DNA of 64,000 bases from Solirubrum puertoriconensis (GCF_001483135.1 NZ_LNAL01000008.1:620001-684000); one strand, 5' to 3'; numbered from the stretch's first letter, positions 5,123 to 37,470 are shown. Program-made: numbers and translations. The notes: a model not told the origin generated them from the sequence alone.

Positions 5123-7528
5123 ATGAATCGTACCATTAAGAAAGTAGCCGTGCTGGGCTCCGGTGTGATGGGCTCGCGCATTGCGGCTCACTTCGCCAAC
5201 ATCGGCGTGCAAGTGCTGCTGCTCGACATTGCGCCCCGCGAGCTGACGCCCGACGAGGAGAAGAAAGGCCTAACGCTCGACTCGCCGCTGGTGCGCAACC
5301 GCATCGTGAACAGCTCGCTGGAGGCTGCCGTGAAGGCTAACCCCTCGCCGCTGTACCGCAAAGCCGACGTGAGCCGCATCAAAACCGGCAACTTCGATGA
5401 CAACCTCAAGGAAATTGCCACCTGCGACTGGACGATTGAGGTAGTAGTTGAGCGCCTCGACATCAAGAAGAGTCTGTTCGACCGCGTGGAGCAGTTCCGC
5501 AAGCCCGGCACGCTCATCACCTCGAACACCTCGGGCATTCCGATTCACTTGATGACGGAAGGTCGCTCCGACGACTTCAAGCGGCACTTCTGCGGTACGC
5601 ACTTCTTCAACCCGCCGCGCTACCTGAAGCTGCTCGAAATTATCCCGACGCCGGACACTGATCCGACCATCGTGGATTTCTTGATGCACTACGGCGACCT
5701 GTACCTCGGTAAGACGACCGTACTGGCCAAAGACACCCCGGCGTTCATCGCCAACCGCGTGGGTGTATTCGCCATTATGGACGTGCTGCAGGTAATGCAG
5801 AAGCTCGGCCTGACGGTAGAAGAGGTGGATAAGCTGACCGGCCCGGTTATCGGCCACGCCAAGTCGGCTACCTTCCGCACCTCCGACGTGGTAGGCTTGG
5901 ATACGCTCATCAACGTAGCCAACGGCCTGGCCCAAAACCTGCCCAACGACGAAGCAAAAGACGCGTTCCAGCTGCCCGACTTCCTGCGGAAGATGGGCGA
6001 GAACAAGTGGCTGGGCGACAAAACCGGCCAGGGCTTCTACAAGAAGGTAAAAGGCGAAGGCGGCAAGTCGGAAATTCAGGCCCTCGACCTAAGCACGCTG
6101 GAGTACAAGCCCAGCGCCAAGGTGAAGTTTGCCACCCTGGAAACCACCAAGGCCATTGATAAGCTAGCCGACCGCTTTAAGGTGCTGGCTGCGGGCAAAG
6201 ACAAAGCCGGCGAGTTCTACCGCCAGTCGTTTGCTGGGCGGTTCGCCTACGTGTCGAACCGCATTCCGGAAATCACCGACGCCCTGTACAAAATCGACGA
6301 CGCCCTGCGCGCCGGCTTCGGCTGGGAAATGGGCCCCTTCGAAACCTGGGATGCCCTAGGTGTGCAGGCCGGTGCAGAGCTGGTGAAGGCCAACGGCAAG
6401 CAGCTCGCCCCATGGGTAGAGGACATGCTAGCCGCCGGCAACACTACGTTCTACAAAGTAGAAGGCGGCGTGAAGCAGTACTACGATGCCGAAACGAAGG
6501 GCTACAAAGCCATTCCGGGCGTCGAGAACTTCATCATCCTCGACAACCTGCGTGCTTCGGGCAAGGTGCTGTGGAAGAACTCCGGTGCTTCAGTAATTGA
6601 CCTCGGCGACGGCATCCTGAACGTGGAGTTCCACTCCAAGATGAACACCCTCGGCACCGACGTGATTCAGGGCTTGCTGAAAGGCGTGGAACTGGCCGAA
6701 AAGAACTTTCGCGGCCTTGTAGTAGGCAACGATGCGCCCAATTTCTCGGCGGGTGCCAACCTGGGCCTGGTGTACATGTACGCCCTGGAGCAGGACTACG
6801 ACGAGATTAACATGATGATTGCCCAGTTTCAGCAGGCCATGATGCGGATGCGCTACAGCAGCATTCCGGTAGTGGGCGTGCCGCACGGCCTCACGCTGGG
6901 CGGCGGTTGCGAGCTGAACCTGCACTGCGACCGGGTAATTGCATCGGCCGAAACCTACATGGGCTTGGTGGAATTTGGCGTAGGCCTGATTCCGGCCGGC
7001 GGTGGCACCAAAGAAATGGTGCTGCGCACGGCGGCTAAGTACGAAGAGGGCGAGCCAGAACTGAACCTGCTGCGCAACACCTTCGTGACCATCTCGATGG
7101 CCAAGGTATCTACCTCGGCTCAAGAGGCATTCGACCTAGGCTTCCTGCGCCGCGGCGACGAGGTAGTGGTGAACAGCAACCGCGCCATCATGGAGGCCAA
7201 GCAGGCTGCCATCGATCTGGCCGATGCGGGCTACACCATGCCCACGCAGAAAACCAACATCAAGGTGCACGGCAAAAACGCCCTAGGTATGTTCCTCACC
7301 GGGGTATACGCCATGAAGGAGGGCAACTACATTTCGGCCCACGATCAGAAGATTGCCGAGAAACTGGCCTACGTAATGTGTGGCGGCGACCTGAGCGCCC
7401 ACACCGAAGTAAGCGAGCAGTACCTGCTGGATTTGGAGCGCGAAGCTTTCCTAAGCCTCACCGGCGAGCGGAAGACTTTGGAAAGAATTCAGTCGATTCT
7501 CACGACGGGCAAGCCGCTGCGCAACTAA
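5123..7528 (+). CDS. fadN: 3-hydroxyacyl-CoA dehydrogenase/enoyl-CoA hydratase, FadN type
   Basis: The 801-residue bifunctional beta-oxidation enzyme hydrates enoyl-CoA and oxidises 3-hydroxyacyl-CoA with NAD. The dehydrogenase half comes first: Rossmann motif GSGVMGSRIAAHFA at about 11-24, then two 3-hydroxyacyl-CoA dehydrogenase C-terminal units. The crotonase half follows (about 490-740) with the oxyanion-hole region NFSAGANLGL, then GGGCEL and GLIPAGGGTKE. This order and size match Bacillus FadN rather than E. coli FadB. The ATG at 5123 gives MNRTIKKVAVLGSGVMG and is preferred over a GTG at 5084. A long inverted repeat separates it from the thiolase gene, its natural partner. Confidence 0.93.
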   Translation: MNRTIKKVAVLGSGVMGSRIAAHFANIGVQVLLLDIAPRELTPDEEKKGLTLDSPLVRNRIVNSSLEAAVKANPSPLYRKADVSRIKTGNFDDNLKEIATCDWTIEVVVERLDIKKSLFDRVEQFRKPGTLITSNTSGIPIHLMTEGRSDDFKRHFCGTHFFNPPRYLKLLEIIPTPDTDPTIVDFLMHYGDLYLGKTTVLAKDTPAFIANRVGVFAIMDVLQVMQKLGLTVEEVDKLTGPVIGHAKSATFRTSDVVGLDTLINVANGLAQNLPNDEAKDAFQLPDFLRKMGENKWLGDKTGQGFYKKVKGEGGKSEIQALDLSTLEYKPSAKVKFATLETTKAIDKLADRFKVLAAGKDKAGEFYRQSFAGRFAYVSNRIPEITDALYKIDDALRAGFGWEMGPFETWDALGVQAGAELVKANGKQLAPWVEDMLAAGNTTFYKVEGGVKQYYDAETKGYKAIPGVENFIILDNLRASGKVLWKNSGASVIDLGDGILNVEFHSKMNTLGTDVIQGLLKGVELAEKNFRGLVVGNDAPNFSAGANLGLVYMYALEQDYDEINMMIAQFQQAMMRMRYSSIPVVGVPHGLTLGGGCELNLHCDRVIASAETYMGLVEFGVGLIPAGGGTKEMVLRTAAKYEEGEPELNLLRNTFVTISMAKVSTSAQEAFDLGFLRRGDEVVVNSNRAIMEAKQAAIDLADAGYTMPTQKTNIKVHGKNALGMFLTGVYAMKEGNYISAHDQKIAEKLAYVMCGGDLSAHTEVSEQYLLDLEREAFLSLTGERKTLERIQSILTTGKPLRN

Positions 7529-29411: not shown

Positions 29412-29990
29412 ATGCCCGAAGTTGAAACCGTAGATGCTCTTGAAGCCCGCCTTGCCGAGCTGCAGCGCACCAACGGCGAAGCTTTTATGCAAGAGCTGTT
29501 TCGGGCATTTTACCGTCCGCTGGGCAACGTGGTGTTTCGGGTGGTGCAAGACCGCGCCGTGGCCGAGGACCTGCTGCAGGATGTGTTCATGCGCATCTGG
29601 AACGGGCGCGATTCGCTCACCATCAGCAGCACCTACAAAGCCTACTTCTACCGCGCCGCTATGAACGCGGCCCTGCGCCATGTGGAGCAGCAAAAACGCC
29701 AAGTAAGCTGGGACGATGCCAACCTGGCCGAACCCGGCCGCGACACCACCGCCGAGCACCTAGAGGGCCAAGAGGCCGAGCAGCTGGTGGCCACGGCCCT
29801 CGAGGCCTTACCGCCGCAGTGCCGCGCCGTGTTTCTGATGAGCCGGCAAGAAGGCATGAGCTATCAGCAGATTGCCGAAGCCTTAGAGGTAGCGCCCAAA
29901 ACCGTAGAAAACCAGATGGGGAAGGCCTTGCGCATCATGCGCGAAAAGCTCAGTGGCTTTTTTTCGGGCCTGAATTCGTGGCTGTTATAG
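29412..29990 (+). CDS. ECF RNA polymerase sigma factor, FecI type
   Basis: The 192-residue product has region 2 (FRVVQDRAVAEDLLQDVFMR) and region 4 (LPPQCRAVFLMSRQEGMSYQ, then QIAEALEVAPKTVENQMGKA), the pattern of Bacteroidota sigma factors paired with FecR anti-sigma proteins. The ATG at 29412 gives MPEVETVDALEARLAELQ. Downstream on the same strand are a GIN-domain lipoprotein, a TonB receptor, a DUF4249 lipoprotein, FecR and an STN-domain protein. Usually fecR follows the sigma gene directly; here 4.4 kb lie between them. The factor probably directs transcription of this surface module. Confidence 0.93.
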   Translation: MPEVETVDALEARLAELQRTNGEAFMQELFRAFYRPLGNVVFRVVQDRAVAEDLLQDVFMRIWNGRDSLTISSTYKAYFYRAAMNAALRHVEQQKRQVSWDDANLAEPGRDTTAEHLEGQEAEQLVATALEALPPQCRAVFLMSRQEGMSYQQIAEALEVAPKTVENQMGKALRIMREKLSGFFSGLNSWLL

Positions 29991-30087
29991 CGTGGTTAAA
30001 AATTTTTTTTGGGGTGGCGTAGGGGTAAGGCCTGGGTTGTGGCTCTTACTACTGAAAACCCTGATAAACCAACCTCTCTCAACCGCT

Positions 30088-30822
30088 ATGAAAACCAACT
30101 GGCTCATTGCTCCTCTTTTCTCGGTACTGCTACTCTCTGCCGGCTGCTCGCACGAAGGCGACGCCTTCGGCCCGCGTGTGCGGGGCACTGGCCCTACCGT
30201 TACGGAAACCCGCTCGCTCAACAGCTTCAGCCGTGTGGAGCTCAAGATTGATGCGGAAGTAATTCTCACGCAGGGCAGCCGGCAGGAAGTACGCATCGAA
30301 GGGCAGCGCAACATCCTCGATGTGCTCGAAACCGAAATCAACGGCGACGAGCTGCAGATTGAGTACGGCCATGTGCGCGTGCGCAGCCACGATCCTATCC
30401 GTGTGTACATCACGGTGCCTTCGCTGTCGGAGGTGCAGGTATCGGGCTCGGGTAAGGTGCGCAGCACCTCGCCGTGGTCGGCTAGCTCCTTCCAAGTAGA
30501 GGTGTCGGGCTCTGGCGAAGCCACCCTGGACCTCGACCAAGTACAAAGCCTGCGCACCCTCATTTCGGGCTCGGGGGAGGCCCGCCTGAGCGGTGAGGCA
30601 GCTAGCCACACCGTCAACATCAGCGGCTCGGGCCAGGTAAGCTCCTACGAGCTGGCCACGCAGGATACCTACGCTTCCATCAGCGGCTCGGGCAAAGCCT
30701 ACGTGCAGGCTGACCGCACGCTCAATGCCGAAATCAGCGGCAGCGGCACCATTTACTACCGCGGCAACCCCACCGTTACCACGCGCATCTCGGGCTCGGG
30801 TAAAGTGCTTAGCGGAAACTAG
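30088..30822 (+). CDS. Lipoprotein with head GIN domain (DUF2807)
   Basis: The 244-residue product starts at ATG 30088 with a lipoprotein signal (MKTNWLIAPLFSVLLLSAGC). The mature part is a DUF2807 beta-helix: SGSG-turn units recur seven times (SGSGKVRS, SGSGEATL, SGSGEARL, SGSGQVSS, SGSGKAYV, SGSGTIYY, SGSGKVLS), each about 20-25 residues after the last, stacking in parallel beta coils. It is likely surface- or periplasm-exposed and possibly a carbohydrate/adhesin-type domain; the function is unproven. It directly follows the FecI-type sigma gene, which suggests it belongs to that regulon. Confidence 0.87.
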   Translation: MKTNWLIAPLFSVLLLSAGCSHEGDAFGPRVRGTGPTVTETRSLNSFSRVELKIDAEVILTQGSRQEVRIEGQRNILDVLETEINGDELQIEYGHVRVRSHDPIRVYITVPSLSEVQVSGSGKVRSTSPWSASSFQVEVSGSGEATLDLDQVQSLRTLISGSGEARLSGEAASHTVNISGSGQVSSYELATQDTYASISGSGKAYVQADRTLNAEISGSGTIYYRGNPTVTTRISGSGKVLSGN

Positions 30823-30965
30823 TCTCAGTTAGTGAGTTTAGGAATAGATGAGTTTACGAGTTAGGCATCTGTGTTCGGCCTGCAAACCGCGCAAGCAAAA
30901 CTTGCCCTCTCATTAACCCACAAACTCTCTAACTCTTAAACTCTCCCTTCTCTCAACAACCGCAA

Positions 30966-31001
30966 CTACTCCGGCCAGCCCCTGCTGGTTGGCCGGAGTA
31001 G
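30966..31001 (+). promoter_or_regulatory. Strong hairpin in the TonB-receptor leader
   Basis: A 12-bp perfect stem (CTACTCCGGCCA with TGGCCGGAGTAG) encloses a smaller GC-rich hairpin and ends 20 bases before the receptor ATG. No T run follows. It may attenuate translation or stabilise the mRNA, or be a terminator for the GIN gene. Confidence 0.5.
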
Positions 31002-31021
31002 CTGCCGCTCCGAAAACAAAC

Positions 31022-33397
31022 ATGAAACCATCAATCCACTGGGGGCTGACTGCTGGGCTGCTACTGACGGCTGCCCCCTCCTGGAGCCAAACCTTGCCCG
31101 AGGCCAGCCAGCGCGCAACCCTGAGCGGCTACCTCCGCGACGGTGCCACCGGCGAGGCTTTGGTGGGCGCCAGCGTATTCGTGAAAGCGCTGGGCCTAGG
31201 TACCAACACCGACGAAAACGGCTACTACCAGCTGCAACTGCCCAAAGGCACGCACACGATTACCTACCTAATTATCGGCTACGAGCCGCAGGAGGTGAAA
31301 ATCAACCTAGGGGCCGATGCCACGCGCTCGGTAAAGCTATCGGCCACGCGGGTGCAAACGCAGGAGGTAGTGGTGCAGGGCCAACGCGCGGAGGACAACG
31401 TGCGCAAGCCCGAAATGAGCGTGAACAAGCTCGACATGAAAACCGTGAAGCTGATGCCCGCGCTCCTAGGTGAGGTAGACGTGGTGCGCAGCATTCAGCT
31501 GTTGCCCGGCGTAACCACGGTGGGCGAGGGGGCATCGGGCTTCAACGTGCGCGGCGGCGGTGTCGATCAGAACCTGATCTTGATGGACGAGATGCCCGTG
31601 TACAACGTGTCGCACTTGTTCGGTTTGTTCTCGGCCTTCAACCCCGACGCCGTGCAGGACATGAAGCTGTACAAGGGCGGCATTCCGGCCCAGTACGGCG
31701 GGCGGTTGTCGTCGCTGCTTGATGTGCGCCTGCGCGATGGGCACACCGCCGAGCGCGCCAGCGTAAACGGCGGCATTGGCCTGATTTCGAGCCGACTGGC
31801 TGTGGAGGCGCCGCTGATTAAGGACCGCACCTCGGTGGTGCTGGCCGGCCGCCGCTCCTACGGCGACTTGTTCCTGAAGCTGGTGCCCGATCAGAAAGAC
31901 AACCAGGCGTACTTCTACGACCTGAGCGTGAAGGTGAATCACAAGTTCAGCTCGCGCGACCAGCTGCAACTCACCGGCTACCGCGGCCGCGACGTGTTCA
32001 ACTTCAGCAACGTGTTCAAAAACAATTGGGGCAACACCGGCGGCACCGCCCGCTGGACGCACCAGTTCTCGCCGCGCCTGTTCGGCAACTTTACCGGCGT
32101 GGCCGCGCAGTACGACTACGCCCTAGGTGTGCCCAACGGTACGCAAGCATTCGAGTGGACCTCGAGCGTGCGAAACTACACCGGCAAGGCCGATTTGAAC
32201 TTCCAGCTGAACGCGAACAACACCATCAGCGGGGGCGTGAGCGGCACGCGCTACCGGTTTAACCCTGCCACGGTAAAGCCGCTAAGCGCCGAGTCGATTT
32301 TTGTGGAGCTGAAGGTGGACGATCAGCAAGCCGGCGAGTACGCTGCGTACATCGATAACGAGCAAACCCTTTCGCCGCGCCTGCAGGTGCAGTATGGCCT
32401 GCGCCTATCGGTGTTCGATTTCCTGGGTACCGGCAAAACCATTTACGACTACCAGGGCGAAACCGGCCAGCGCAAAGACCCGCTGAACCCGCGCACGCCC
32501 AAGGACGGCGAGGTGGTGAAGCGCTACGCCAACCTGGAGCCCCGCGCCTCAATGCGCTTCACGCTCGACGAGAACAGCTCGCTGAAAGCCAGCTACAACC
32601 GCACGGCGCAGTACATCCACCTGATATCGAACACCACGGCCGCCTCGCCCTTGGATGTGTGGAGCCCCAGCACGAACAACATCCGGCCGGAGCGCGCCGA
32701 CCAAGTGGCCCTAGGTTACTTCCGCAACTTCCTCGACAATGGCTACGAGGCCTCGGTGGAAGTATTCGGCAAAACCATGGACAACCAGATTGATTACGTG
32801 AACGGGGCCAACACCCTGCTCAACAAAAATCTGGAAGGCGAGCTGCTTTACGGCCAGGGCCGCGCTTATGGCGCCGAGTTCTTCGTGAAGAAAAACCAAG
32901 GCCCGCTGACGGGTTGGGTAAGCTACACCTTGTCGCGCTCGGAGCGGCAGATTGATGGCATCAACCGCGGCGAATGGTACGCCAACAAGTACGACAAAAC
33001 GCATAACCTCTCGGTGGTGAGCATGTACCAGGTGGGCAAGCGCCTCACGGTGTCGGGCAACTTCTCTTACAGCACCGGCGTGGCTACCACTTTCCCCAAC
33101 GCCCGCTTTAGCTACGAGGGCCTGGTGGTGCCGGTGGTAAGCGGCGATGCCCGCAACAACTACCGCGTGCCTGCCTACCACCGCCTCGACCTAGGGGCCA
33201 CGCTCAAGAACCGCACGGTAGAGGGCCGCCGCTGGCAAAGCGAGTGGGTGTTTTCGGTGTACAACGTGTACAGCCGCCGCAACGCCTACGGTATCTACTT
33301 CCGCCAAAACGAAGACGACCCGCGCAAAACCGAGGCCGTGCGCCTGTCGGTGTTCGGCTCGATGCTGCCTTCGGTGTCTTACAACTTCAACTTCTAA
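31022..33397 (+). CDS. TonB-dependent receptor
   Basis: The 791-residue outer-membrane receptor has a signal peptide (MKPSIHWGLTAGLLLTAAPS), a carboxypeptidase-regulatory-like domain (about 35-115: SGYLRDGATGEALVGASVFV, DENGYYQLQL), the plug (LPGVTTVGEGASGFNVRGGG and DQNLILMDEMPVYN), and a 22-strand barrel ending SYNFNF with terminal Phe. It imports an unidentified ligand using TonB energy. It has no N-terminal STN signalling domain, though it lies in a FecI/FecR locus. The DUF4249 lipoprotein follows 21 bases later, a common pairing in which the lipoprotein acts as a surface partner. Confidence 0.93.
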   Translation: MKPSIHWGLTAGLLLTAAPSWSQTLPEASQRATLSGYLRDGATGEALVGASVFVKALGLGTNTDENGYYQLQLPKGTHTITYLIIGYEPQEVKINLGADATRSVKLSATRVQTQEVVVQGQRAEDNVRKPEMSVNKLDMKTVKLMPALLGEVDVVRSIQLLPGVTTVGEGASGFNVRGGGVDQNLILMDEMPVYNVSHLFGLFSAFNPDAVQDMKLYKGGIPAQYGGRLSSLLDVRLRDGHTAERASVNGGIGLISSRLAVEAPLIKDRTSVVLAGRRSYGDLFLKLVPDQKDNQAYFYDLSVKVNHKFSSRDQLQLTGYRGRDVFNFSNVFKNNWGNTGGTARWTHQFSPRLFGNFTGVAAQYDYALGVPNGTQAFEWTSSVRNYTGKADLNFQLNANNTISGGVSGTRYRFNPATVKPLSAESIFVELKVDDQQAGEYAAYIDNEQTLSPRLQVQYGLRLSVFDFLGTGKTIYDYQGETGQRKDPLNPRTPKDGEVVKRYANLEPRASMRFTLDENSSLKASYNRTAQYIHLISNTTAASPLDVWSPSTNNIRPERADQVALGYFRNFLDNGYEASVEVFGKTMDNQIDYVNGANTLLNKNLEGELLYGQGRAYGAEFFVKKNQGPLTGWVSYTLSRSERQIDGINRGEWYANKYDKTHNLSVVSMYQVGKRLTVSGNFSYSTGVATTFPNARFSYEGLVVPVVSGDARNNYRVPAYHRLDLGATLKNRTVEGRRWQSEWVFSVYNVYSRRNAYGIYFRQNEDDPRKTEAVRLSVFGSMLPSVSYNFNF

Positions 33398-33418
33398 CGG
33401 CTGCGGCCGCCTAGCAAT

Positions 33419-34249
33419 ATGCTCGCCCGTTTCTTTTCTCTTGCCGCTTTAGTCCTAACCCTAGGTACGCTGGCCAGCTGCACCGATGTGGTGCAAGTTG
33501 AGTTGCCCGAGCCGGAGTCACAGTTGGCCGTGGAAGGCAACATCACCGACCAACCCGGCCCTTACGAAATTCGCCTGACGCGCACCGGCGCTTACTTCGA
33601 CGACAAAACGCCGCTGGCCGTGCGCGGCGCCGAACTCACCATTTCGGATAGCCAGGGCGCTACCGAAATCCTGCGCGAAACCGCCCCCGGCGTGTACCAA
33701 ACCAGCAGCCTGCGCGGCCGCATCGGCAACCAGTACACGCTTACCATCAAGGCCGATGGGCAGGAGTACCGCGCCGCTACCGAAATCAAGCGCGTGCCCG
33801 AAATCGACCGCTTCGAGCAGCAGCACAAGGTAAACGAGCCCGGCTGGCGCGACGGCTACTACGTGCTCTACAACGGCCCCGAGCTGCCCGGCGTGGGCGA
33901 CTACTACCGCTTTAAGCTGTACCAAAACGACACGCTGCGCAACAACCCCGACGAGCTGATCGTGCGCGACGATGCTCTGGTCGACGGCAAGTACATCGGC
34001 GACGTGGAGCTATCCGACCGGCCCTTTCGTATCGGCGACCGGGCGCGGGTAGAAATTTTGTCGCTGCCGAAAGATTACTTCTTCTTCCTGAACGAGATGT
34101 TCACGCAGATCAACAACGTAGGCATGTTCTCGTCGCCGCCCGCCAACGTACGTACCAACATCGTCAACGTAAACCCCAACGGTCCCAAAGCCGTGGGCTA
34201 CTTCGCCGGCACGGCCGTGCGCTCGGCTACGGTTACCATTACGCCATAG
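33419..34249 (+). CDS. DUF4249 lipoprotein
   Basis: The 276-residue product has a lipoprotein signal (MLARFFSLAALVLTLGTLAS, then Cys21) followed by DUF4249 features: VQVELPEPESQLAVEGNITD, then PYEIRLTRTGAYF, and RIGDRARVEILSLPKDYFFF. DUF4249 proteins usually follow a TonB receptor and are thought to work with it at the cell surface. Here it is 21 bases behind the receptor stop, so the two are an operon. A REP-like pair separates it from fecR. Confidence 0.88.
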   Translation: MLARFFSLAALVLTLGTLASCTDVVQVELPEPESQLAVEGNITDQPGPYEIRLTRTGAYFDDKTPLAVRGAELTISDSQGATEILRETAPGVYQTSSLRGRIGNQYTLTIKADGQEYRAATEIKRVPEIDRFEQQHKVNEPGWRDGYYVLYNGPELPGVGDYYRFKLYQNDTLRNNPDELIVRDDALVDGKYIGDVELSDRPFRIGDRARVEILSLPKDYFFFLNEMFTQINNVGMFSSPPANVRTNIVNVNPNGPKAVGYFAGTAVRSATVTITP

Positions 34250-34254
34250 CCGCC

Positions 34255-34364
34255 GTAGCGCGGACTTCAGTCCGCGTTCTTTGGATAGTAATTTTAAGTC
34301 GTTAGCACCTAGGGCGAGGATTAGAAATTGCTACCTAGAGGACGCGGGCTGAAGCCCGCGCTAC
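34255..34364. repeat. Pair of inverted REP-like palindromes
   Basis: GTAGCGCGGACTTCAGTCCG (34255 onward, 23 bases) and an inverted near-copy (34342-34364) flank 64 bases. The two arms differ at two positions that keep each arm self-complementary (A/T against G/C). Each arm is itself a palindrome around CTTCAG or CTGAAG. Such GTAGCGCGG-CTTCAG palindromes are dispersed in many genomes; only this pair is seen here. Confidence 0.85.
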
Positions 34365-34413
34365 ATGCAGTTTGGTCGAAAATCACCAACTTAATACCCG
34401 ATTCTCCGCCACC

Positions 34414-35487
34414 ATGCCCGAGCTTTACCCCGATACGGAAGCCCCCTGGGAGCTACTCGCCAAACATTTGGCGGGCGAAGCCTCCGTGTCGGAGCAGGAG
34501 GAGCTGCACCGCTGGCTAACGGCGCGCCCGAGCCGCTTGCGTGTGCTTACCGACGCCACCCGGGCGTGGGAGCGGGGCGGCACCACGGCAGAAGTTTTCA
34601 CCGAAGCCGATGTGGATAAAGCCTGGCAGCGCTTCAGCGCGGCAGCGGGCATAAAGACCACTGGCGGCAGCACGGTAGCACCGCCCGCATCGGCCGAAGA
34701 AGCTCGGGTAGTTTCGATGTGGGGCAGCAGCCAAACCTGGATGCGCGTAGCCGCGGCCGTGTTGCTGCTGGTAGGCGCCTGGGCGGTGGCCCGCACCTTC
34801 TTGCTCAGCCGAGGCTCGGCCGAAACGGTAACCGTAGCTGCCGGCCCCGAGCGCAAACTGAGCACCTTGCCCGATGGCAGCCGCGTGTGGGTAAACCGCA
34901 ACTCCACGCTTAGCTACGCGGCCGATTTCAACGAAAGTAGCCGCGTGGTGCAGCTGAAAGGGGAGGCGTTTTTCGAAGTAAAAAAGGACAACGGCCGACC
35001 CTTTACGGTGCTGGCCAACGACACCCGCACCCGCGTGCTGGGCACCTCCTTTAACGTGCGCGCCTACTCGGCCGAAGATTCGGTGGAGGTTTCGGTAGTA
35101 ACGGGCCGCGTGGCGTTCAGCCCCGATCGGCAGCGCGTAACGGTGCAGGATTCGGTGGTGCTTACGCCGGGGCTGCGCGGCGTTATCCGGCGCTCGGCAC
35201 CAGCAGTTGCCTTGCAAAAACCCATCGTCGACCCCAACTTCCGGGCGTGGCAGCAGGATGAGCTGGTGTTTGATAACCAGAGCCTCGGGCAAGTAGCCCA
35301 AACTCTTACCCGCTTCTACGGCACTCCCGTGGAGCTAAGCCGGCCGGAGCTGGCGAACTGCCGCTTTACGGGCAACTTTAAACAGGCCCAACTGCCGCAA
35401 GTGCTGCGCGTCGTCAGCCTGTCGGCTAACCTGTCGGTTTCGCAAACCGCCGACGGCTATATTCTTGACGGACCGGGCTGCCAGTAG
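34414..35487 (+). CDS. FecR-family anti-sigma/signal-transducing protein
   Basis: The 357-residue product starts at ATG 34414. The N-terminal cytoplasmic part (PWELLAKHLAGEASVSEQEE) binds the sigma factor; a single membrane helix lies near 115-132 (WMRVAAAVLLLVGAWAVART); the periplasmic FecR domain follows (ERKLSTLPDGSRVWVNRNST, GEAFFEVKKDNGRPFTVLAN) and the C-terminal DUF4974 part (FDNQSLGQVAQTLTRFYGTP). In FecR systems this last part contacts an STN domain of an outer-membrane partner. That partner is probably the STN protein encoded 36 bases downstream, not the TonB receptor. Confidence 0.92.
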   Translation: MPELYPDTEAPWELLAKHLAGEASVSEQEELHRWLTARPSRLRVLTDATRAWERGGTTAEVFTEADVDKAWQRFSAAAGIKTTGGSTVAPPASAEEARVVSMWGSSQTWMRVAAAVLLLVGAWAVARTFLLSRGSAETVTVAAGPERKLSTLPDGSRVWVNRNSTLSYAADFNESSRVVQLKGEAFFEVKKDNGRPFTVLANDTRTRVLGTSFNVRAYSAEDSVEVSVVTGRVAFSPDRQRVTVQDSVVLTPGLRGVIRRSAPAVALQKPIVDPNFRAWQQDELVFDNQSLGQVAQTLTRFYGTPVELSRPELANCRFTGNFKQAQLPQVLRVVSLSANLSVSQTADGYILDGPGCQ

Positions 35488-35523
35488 CCCTATCTTCACC
35501 CTCCAACAGACTTCCTGATCCCC

Positions 35524-37470
35524 ATGTCTGCTATGCGAAATCGCATATGCCTGGCGGCTGCCATGCTGTGCGCCCTGGCCGCTGAGCCCGTTGTGGCCCA
35601 AGTTCGTAGTGGCTCGGTGCTCGAGCGCAAAGTTACGGTTACGTTCAACGACGCGCCGCTCGAATCGGTGCTGCGCACCTTGCGGCGCCAGTACGGCGTG
35701 CGCATCTCCTACAGCAACACGGCGTTAAACCTGAAGCAGCCCGTAACGGTGTCGGCCAACAACCAGCCGCTGCGTGCGGTGCTTAGCGAAGTGTTGCGCG
35801 ATAAGAACATTGGCTACGAGCTGGTGGGCGACCAGGTGGTGCTGCACCCCGCGGTACCCAAATCTGCCGCGACCAAACCAGCTTCGGCACCCGCCCCGGC
35901 CACTACGACTACCACCGTCAGCAAAGCCGTACTCGACCGCACGCCTAACGAGGCAGCGCCTAGGCTGGAGCCGAGCAAAACGGCCGATAAGCCCGGCGCC
36001 GCACCGGCCGCAAAGCCGGCAACCCCAGCCAAAGCTGCACCCACGAAGAAAGAGCCAGCTAAGGCTACCAAGAGCCAATCGGCCACGTCTAAGGCTAGCA
36101 ACACGGGTGGCGGCAAAGTACCGGCCAAGGCAGCACCAAGCAAGAAGGAAAGTGCAACGCCCGCGCAAGCCGCTACCGCTGATAAACCTAGCGGCCAGGG
36201 CTCAGCGGCTAGTGGCGTAGGAGGCACCGACCCGGAAGTAGCGCCAGCTACCACCACTGCATCAACCAGCACACCGGTAGCTGCTACACCGCCCGCCGCA
36301 GCTGATACTAAACCCACAACCAAGCAAGATTCGGCTGCCGTAACTGCTGCAGTACCCCCCGAGACTAACGAAAATGAGGCACCCGCACGCCCGACCTACC
36401 GAGAGCCAGCGCAGATTTCCTTCCTAGGTCCGCTGGGCTCCAATGGGCTGCGCAGTAGCCAAACGGTGAATAACCTGTCCATCAACGTGCTAGGAGGTTA
36501 TTCGGCCGGGGTAGAGGGCTTCGAGGCAGCCGGCTTGTTCAACATCGACCGCGACACCGTAGATGGCGCGCAGGTGGCCGGCCTAGCCAATATTGTGGGC
36601 AAGCACTTGGATGGCGTGCAAGGAGCGGGCCTGATGAACGTGCTGGGCGGTGGTGGCCGTGGCTGGCAGGCCGCGGGCTTGCTGAACGTGGCCGCGCGAC
36701 CCATTGCCGGCGCTCAAACGGCGGGTTTGTTCAACTACGTGGGCCCGACCAAGAAGCTGCCCGTGGTAGCCGATGCAGCACCCGCCACGGAAGCCGCGCC
36801 AACCCGCAAGCCCACTGTGCAGGCGGCAGGCTTGTTCAACGTGGCCCTAGGTGAGGTGCGCGGCGGGCAGGCAGCAGGGCTGCTAAACGTAGCGGGTACC
36901 GTGCACGGCGTGCAACTTGCCGGCCTGCTGAACGTGGCCGACTCGGTAGATGGCGTGAGTATTGCGCCCATCAACTTTGTGCGCCACGGCTACCACCGTT
37001 TCGAGGTGACTAACTCCGAGGTATGGCCCGTAAGCGCCAGCCTCAAACTAGGCGGCTCGGCGGCATTCTATACGTTCTTCACCGGGGCCTATGCCGGCTT
37101 CGGCAACAAGCCCCGGCGGTGGGCGGTAGGCTACGGGCTAGGCTCCGAAGTGTGGGCGCGGCGCCGCCTGAGCGTAGCGCTAGATGCCGTAGCCATGCAC
37201 GTAAACGAAGAACAACGCGGCTGGACGCGCGACCTGAACCTCGACAGCCAGCTGCGTCTGCTCCTAGGTGTGGCACCCTTCAAAAAAGACGGGCACCTGC
37301 GCATTGTGTTTGGCCCCACGGTGAGCGTGCTCGTGACGCAACGCTACGACACTACCGAGCAGCAAGTGTACTCCAACCTGGCCGAAGGCCGCAAACTGTG
37401 GCTCGACGAAGGCAACTCTGCCACCCGCGTGCTCGGTTGGGTGGGCTACACGGCCGGCATCCGCTTCTGA
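35524..37470 (+). CDS. STN-domain protein with surface repeats and predicted outer-membrane barrel
   Basis: The 648-residue product has four visible parts: a signal peptide (to about 26); an STN domain (34-109; VTFNDAPLESVLRTLRRQYG and NQPLRAVLSEVLRDKNIGYE); a low-complexity Ala/Pro/Thr/Lys linker (111-295); then about seven Gly-Leu-Phe/Leu-Asn-Val units (315-485), like the LA_2272-type surface repeat; and a C-terminal beta region ending VGYTAGIRF with terminal Phe, as in outer-membrane barrels. STN is normally the N-terminal signalling domain of TonB transducers. ATG 35524 is used (35533 is an alternative). It is 36 bases after fecR. Confidence 0.85.
   Translation: MSAMRNRICLAAAMLCALAAEPVVAQVRSGSVLERKVTVTFNDAPLESVLRTLRRQYGVRISYSNTALNLKQPVTVSANNQPLRAVLSEVLRDKNIGYELVGDQVVLHPAVPKSAATKPASAPAPATTTTTVSKAVLDRTPNEAAPRLEPSKTADKPGAAPAAKPATPAKAAPTKKEPAKATKSQSATSKASNTGGGKVPAKAAPSKKESATPAQAATADKPSGQGSAASGVGGTDPEVAPATTTASTSTPVAATPPAAADTKPTTKQDSAAVTAAVPPETNENEAPARPTYREPAQISFLGPLGSNGLRSSQTVNNLSINVLGGYSAGVEGFEAAGLFNIDRDTVDGAQVAGLANIVGKHLDGVQGAGLMNVLGGGGRGWQAAGLLNVAARPIAGAQTAGLFNYVGPTKKLPVVADAAPATEAAPTRKPTVQAAGLFNVALGEVRGGQAAGLLNVAGTVHGVQLAGLLNVADSVDGVSIAPINFVRHGYHRFEVTNSEVWPVSASLKLGGSAAFYTFFTGAYAGFGNKPRRWAVGYGLGSEVWARRRLSVALDAVAMHVNEEQRGWTRDLNLDSQLRLLLGVAPFKKDGHLRIVFGPTVSVLVTQRYDTTEQQVYSNLAEGRKLWLDEGNSATRVLGWVGYTAGIRF

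Follow-up and report, generated by a model that had tools for sequence, protein, structure and literature searches.

Textbook cell-surface signalling ties gene control to TonB-powered import, and one outer-membrane receptor carries both the ligand and the signal. The classical systems require ligand, receptor movement and TonB energy (PMC9249621). Prior to the signal, the STN domain of the FoxA/FoxR system is bound to the anti-sigma factor and protects it; how such a domain, anchored as it is to the outer membrane, can cross the periplasm to meet FecR is an open problem (PMC11637429). Here, we describe a FecI-type locus at positions 29412-37470 of a 64,000-nucleotide stretch of the Solirubrum puertoriconensis genome (GCF_001483135.1, NZ_LNAL01000008.1:620001-684000; hereafter the window, from whose first letter all its positions are counted), in which the STN domain is found on a barrel protein encoded directly behind fecR. 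The locus is probably a cell-surface signalling system whose transducer is this TonB-independent STN/barrel protein and not a TonB-dependent receptor; the contact between STN and FecR is one that we infer. No published description of the arrangement was found in the literature searched, which excludes most subscription journals.

The STN protein and its FecR

The STN protein is encoded at 35524-37470 (plus strand), 36 bases behind fecR, and is 648 residues long. Its STN domain (PF07660, E=1e-10, 41.6 bits) is above the cut-off, as expected from the initial annotation, which had put STN on the last gene. In an AlphaFold model built with 45 homologues, the STN signalling domain (residues 36-109, 35629-35850) has predicted local distance difference test (pLDDT) values of about 90-97 and matches 6ovk_B with Z 10.2 over 80 residues. 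It is followed by a disordered linker rich in Ala, Thr, Pro and Lys (residues 117-285, about 170 in all, 35872-36378; pLDDT mostly <50), which agrees with the linker of about 185 residues noticed earlier. Next comes a modelled beta-solenoid of AGLxN repeats (residues 292-486, 36397-36981), of LA_2272 type by its homologues, and then a predicted eight-stranded outer-membrane barrel (residues 490-648, 36991-37467), whose strands are modelled at 490-647; all these parts are read on the plus strand. The Gly-Leu-Asn repeats that had been noted together with the barrel are thus present, but they form a separate solenoid ahead of it. In the window protein itself the LA_2272 repeat (NF047436) was not detected (0 families in the repeat model search), but it is above the cut-off in the homologues L022, L029, L040 and L019.

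With Foldseek, the whole 648-residue model gave no match at E<=0.001, and the domains were compared one by one with VIA-align instead. The barrel, predicted before from the sequence, matches OprF (4rlc, Z 13.2), NspA (12.5), OmpA (11.6) and OmpW (11.1), and its model has the eight antiparallel strands and the C-terminal aromatic residue (F648) of OmpA/OmpW-like barrels. The solenoid matches the bacterial beta-helical antifreeze protein 3p4g (Z 16.1), a likeness that may lie in the repeat arrangement alone. The domain search found neither Plug nor TonB_dep_Rec in this protein at E<=1. Barrels with an even number of strands and an aromatic last residue have their N-terminus in the periplasm, and by this modelled topology the solenoid, the linker and the STN domain are expected to lie there. 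Between the STN domain and the start of the barrel model, 80-254 residues are found across homologues (median 138), and a CarbopepD domain sits within this stretch in several taxa. That the linker spans the periplasm, as had been proposed, is therefore plausible only, the stretch being so variable and partly filled by the solenoid.

The FecR anti-sigma/sigma regulator (34414-35487, plus strand; PF04773 and PF16344) is modelled with cytoplasmic helices, a transmembrane helix at residues 107-132, a periplasmic FecR domain and a C-terminal STN-like domain. Its periplasmic part matches Parabacteroides BDI_1681 (Z 22.6) and the PupR CCSSD (6ovk_R, Z 21.5 over 207 residues). The 6OVK structure is the complex of the PupR CCSSD with the PupB signalling domain (PMC7186176). 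In fold comparison, the adjacent genes fecR and STN/barrel match both halves of this solved PupR:PupB complex, and binding between FecR and STN is predicted from these matches.

Conservation of the module and origin of the gene order

Homologues were gathered by a genome scan and by genome sampling, and 94 distinct STN/barrel proteins were obtained from Hymenobacter, Cyclobacteriaceae, Spirosoma, Sphingobacteriaceae, Chitinophagaceae, Saprospiraceae and others. Matches covering STN and barrel occur in 19 of the 392 sampled Bacteroidota genomes. Of the 77 loci that reach far enough, 76 have fecR as the gene directly before STN/barrel. Sigma was found upstream in 55 of 68 loci, and in most non-Hymenobacter loci it is the gene right before fecR. 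As judged from these neighbourhoods, sigma-FecR-STN/barrel is a conserved and widespread Bacteroidota module, in which the adjacency of FecR and STN/barrel is a dedicated partnership. The FecR tree (n=114) follows the partner, barrel-linked and receptor-linked proteins clustering separately with 7 label changes vs 31.5 in shuffles. Among the 28 FecRs of one genome (G352), the barrel-linked one scores best by far with a profile that was itself built from barrel-linked FecRs. The genome of S. puertoriconensis (4.8 Mb, 99.92% complete) holds one FecR, one STN above the cut-off and no close paralogue of the sigma gene, whose closest other match is just 27% identical; with its single FecR, it is a clean test bed.

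Some related proteins have other partners. In two Hymenobacter loci (L156:1885-6772 and L157:616-5190), FecRs that score unusually near the barrel-linked group adjoin an STN-bearing TonB receptor related to the receptor family of the window. At L168:958-4918 (G063), the protein encoded behind fecR has STN and CarbopepD domains and matches DUF5686 weakly, and STN may there serve a third class of outer-membrane protein. LA_2272-type barrels without STN, with no sigma or FecR nearby, were seen in family f43 genomes of the same phylum (L116-L118).

The remaining genes of the window stand before fecR, all on the plus strand, in the order and at the coordinates first reported. The FecI-type extracytoplasmic function (ECF) sigma factor (29412-29990; TIGR02985 above cut-off, 141.7 bits) is followed by a DUF2807 (head GIN / Toastrack) lipoprotein (30088-30822; E=6.7e-45, lipobox SAGC), a TonB-dependent receptor (31022-33397) and a DUF4249 lipoprotein (33419-34249; E=1.7e-30, lipobox LASC). 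The receptor has CarbopepD_reg_2 and Plug, and the domain search found no STN match in it even at E<=1, which bears out the earlier reading of a carboxypeptidase-regulatory-like N-terminus without STN. Between the DUF4249 and fecR genes is a repetitive extragenic palindromic (REP)-like inverted pair (34255-34364, no strand), with an extra core copy near window position 5623 on the minus strand. The pair is not kept at this position in the other aligned Hymenobacter loci and was dropped as a functional element.

The initial annotation had regarded the locus as split, and this view was reversed by the neighbourhood comparison that it had proposed. Hymenobacter loci show the module with and without the receptor/DUF4249 pair: the base order is sigma, DUF2807, FecR, STN/barrel (L006, L007, L009-L012, L014), and the pair was inserted before fecR in one subclade (the window, L002-L005, L008), so that it is the lineage-specific addition to a widespread form. 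In G098, the closest homologue of the receptor (64%) lies on a different contig. Separation of STN from the neighbouring receptor was likewise rejected, because the receptor-free module occurs phylum-wide. The distance of 4.4 kb between sigma and fecR, remarked upon as unusual, was measured as stated, and its oddity goes back to the same insertion. Hymenobacter loci without the pair have gaps of mostly about 0.8-1.1 kb (larger gaps, at L009 and L013, take in a second sigma gene or a different gene order), and the 4.4 kb gap was rejected as meaningful in itself.

Promoter motif and candidate output

The upstream regions of Hymenobacter DUF2807 genes align with a conserved A/T tract, GTRGGGGTA, 16 bases and TCNTA, a layout that we take to resemble ECF promoters with a GTC-type -10. 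From these alignments and motif scans, the putative ECF promoter of the window is GTAGGGGTAAGGCCTGGGTTGTGGCTCTTA (30019-30048, plus strand), with an A/T tract before it. It is the sole exact match to GTRGGGGTA-N16-TCNTA in the 4.8 Mb genome; one-mismatch sites number 9 vs 6 in a reversed-pattern control, and therefore the exact site alone was used in this genome. Among the loci, exact matches stand just upstream of DUF2807 genes, of sigma genes and once of a TonB receptor, and in L002 and L005 both the DUF2807 gene and the motif are present twice. In strain CRA2, the motif has remained with the DUF2807 gene although sigma is about 43 kb away.

When a matrix trained on Hymenobacter alone was applied to other loci, 40 of the 57 barrel-type ones had the motif ahead of a module gene, vs 3 of 36 STN-receptor loci. 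The barrel-type sites precede sigma (26), STN-less receptor (16), barrel paralogue (10), fecR (5), DUF2807 (2) and STN/barrel (1) genes, and all 3 matches in the 36 STN-receptor loci are at fecR, with none upstream of STN receptors. Total matrix matches are only about twofold over shuffles (101 vs 45.8) and the barrel-type loci are longer, so placement, not count, is the evidence. With a stricter pattern, 23 whole genomes gave 20 matches vs 4 in the reversed-pattern control, and off-locus sites were found ahead of one lipoprotein gene each of the DUF2807 and DUF4097 families and ahead of two CarbopepD receptors without STN, with a few further sites left unassigned.

The pattern suggests that the sigma factor reads GTRGGGGTA-N16-TCNTA as a putative promoter, and the receptor and lipoproteins look like output of the system. 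With this motif, the regulon can be predicted in many Bacteroidota. The Toastrack domain unites DUF2807 and DUF4097; it is linked to envelope-stress systems, and an intracellular role is predicted for it in the systems of that study (PMC11237479). Given this intracellular prediction, the Toastrack lipoproteins are a weak hint at an envelope-state response.

Proposed signalling mechanism, alternatives and known systems

In the proposed mechanism, the STN/solenoid/barrel protein would be exported and its C-terminal eight-stranded barrel inserted in the outer membrane, with everything ahead of the barrel (STN domain, flexible linker and solenoid) in the periplasm. By homology to PupB:PupR, STN would dock on the STN-like C-terminal domain of the inner-membrane FecR, stabilising FecR and keeping sigma in check, as in FoxA/FoxR. 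If the barrel or the outer membrane changed, docking would be altered, leading to cleavage of FecR and freeing sigma to use the GTRGGGGTA-N16-TCNTA promoter. The predicted output in the window is the DUF2807 lipoprotein and probably also the receptor and DUF4249 genes downstream, and in relatives it would extend to the sigma gene itself, to barrel paralogues and to TonB receptors without STN. Since the barrel has no plug, ligand-driven plug movement cannot be the trigger; plausible inputs are the state of the outer membrane or the occupancy of a partner surface complex. The anatomy, the conservation, the partnership and the motif are shown by computation, and the direction of control is a proposal. 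A plug-less transducer uncouples import from signalling and predicts TonB-independent signalling, and the long disordered linker with the solenoid offers a natural answer to the problem of crossing the periplasm.

Other explanations have been weighed against this mechanism. The STN/barrel protein could be merely an output, with an orphan STN-bearing TonB receptor or another receptor as the transducer for FecR. The own genome does hold an orphan TonB receptor of 936 aa whose N-terminus is weakly STN-like (G000:C8:1503038 on; L115:4539-8508, a locus that also holds a DUF4249 gene), and barrel-only paralogues carry the motif in several genomes, so LA_2272 barrels can be outputs. However, the STN-like domain of the orphan falls short of the Pfam STN cut-off, neither FecR nor sigma is encoded beside it, the barrel-only outputs are without STN, and both the phylum-wide link of FecR to the STN/barrel gene and the FecR tree point to the barrel protein, which makes this explanation unlikely. 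There is similarly little probability that the receptor is the signal source and passes ligand information to the barrel protein, STN acting as a relay in a two-part transducer that is TonB-dependent upstream. The STN-less receptor and DUF4249 genes do lie inside the Hymenobacter operon and beside the module in other taxa (L040), but the module has no adjoining receptor in several Hymenobacter and many other loci, and a common motif indicates co-regulation, not sensing. That fecR-STN is transcribed and regulated on its own, and lies beside sigma by chance, is very improbable. It would fit the 164-bp gap with the REP-like pair before fecR and strain CRA2 (L004/G007), in which sigma is about 43 kb from the other module genes; but in more than 30 loci outside Hymenobacter the sigma and fecR genes overlap or are no more than about 50 bases apart, and the own genome has a sole FecR and no close sigma paralogue.

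Several points weigh against the STN/barrel transducer. In 13 of the 68 loci, some of them short pieces, no sigma gene was seen close to the module; one STN/barrel gene (L127:7112-8875, G413) has neither FecR nor sigma within 7 kb; and a sigma-DUF2807-FecR-STN operon (L121:4433-7932, G020) has lost the barrel, its STN protein being only 246 aa, and retains the promoter motif. The orphan receptor at L115 could also reach FecR through its weak STN-like domain, and the promoter is a sequence motif and not a mapped start site, so other factors could bind it. Inter-domain covariation of STN and FecR exceeds permuted pairing, but shared ancestry alone could give that, and it was set aside as interface evidence. 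The earlier proposal, that FecR takes its signal from an independent outer-membrane sensor and that the output is the receptor and the lipoproteins, is nevertheless supported by the STN-less receptor, the phylum-wide FecR-STN/barrel adjacency, the single FecR and single STN above the cut-off in the genome and the common motif; the interface of STN with FecR and the way in which the signal runs are parts that we infer. The observation is real, broader than the initial annotation claimed, and mechanistically coherent.

Compared with FecIRA, PupIRB and FoxIRA of E. coli and Pseudomonas, the locus shares the FecI-type ECF sigma, the FecR with one transmembrane helix and periplasmic FecR and STN-like C-terminal domains, the outer-membrane protein with N-terminal STN, and outer-membrane uptake genes as probable output. 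It departs from them in that its STN protein is not a TonB-dependent receptor with a plug: the transducer is a plug-less eight-stranded barrel with a solenoid and a long linker, in which ligand-driven plug movement and TonB energy cannot play the same triggering role, and the co-regulated TonB receptors are without STN. The STN-SusC/TonB receptor loci of Bacteroidota have the same sigma and FecR families, usually in the order sigma-FecR-STN protein (L136-L175). In these, however, the partner is a TonB receptor of mostly 850-1220 aa, the FecR is mostly of other lineages, and the motif is absent upstream of the receptors. The LA_2272 surface-repeat proteins (NF047436) share the AGLxN repeats, and homologues of the window protein exceed the model cut-off; the family covers the repeat only, whereas the window protein and its homologues add STN and the linker and sit behind FecR.

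In spirochaetes, operons at L054, L056, L061 and L066 likewise combine an ECF sigma, a single-transmembrane regulator and an LA_2272-type barrel with an N-terminal extracytoplasmic domain, but this domain is a caspase fold, not STN, and the regulator is not FecR (weak DUF4384). Operons that join an ECF sigma, a single-transmembrane protein of anti-sigma-like kind (weak DUF4384) and a fusion of caspase (PF00656) with an LA_2272-type solenoid barrel are found at L054:7367-11041, L056:7468-10924, L059:7158-10912, L061:7412-11095, L066:7350-10870 and L067:7433-10966. Tentatively, LA_2272 solenoid-barrels might form a general, TonB-free class of ECF-sigma sensors with a swappable periplasmic output domain, in which STN would act on FecR in Bacteroidota and the caspase on a different anti-sigma protein in Spirochaetota, and the Toastrack lipoproteins and barrel paralogues of the Bacteroidota regulon would then point to a response to the state of the envelope.

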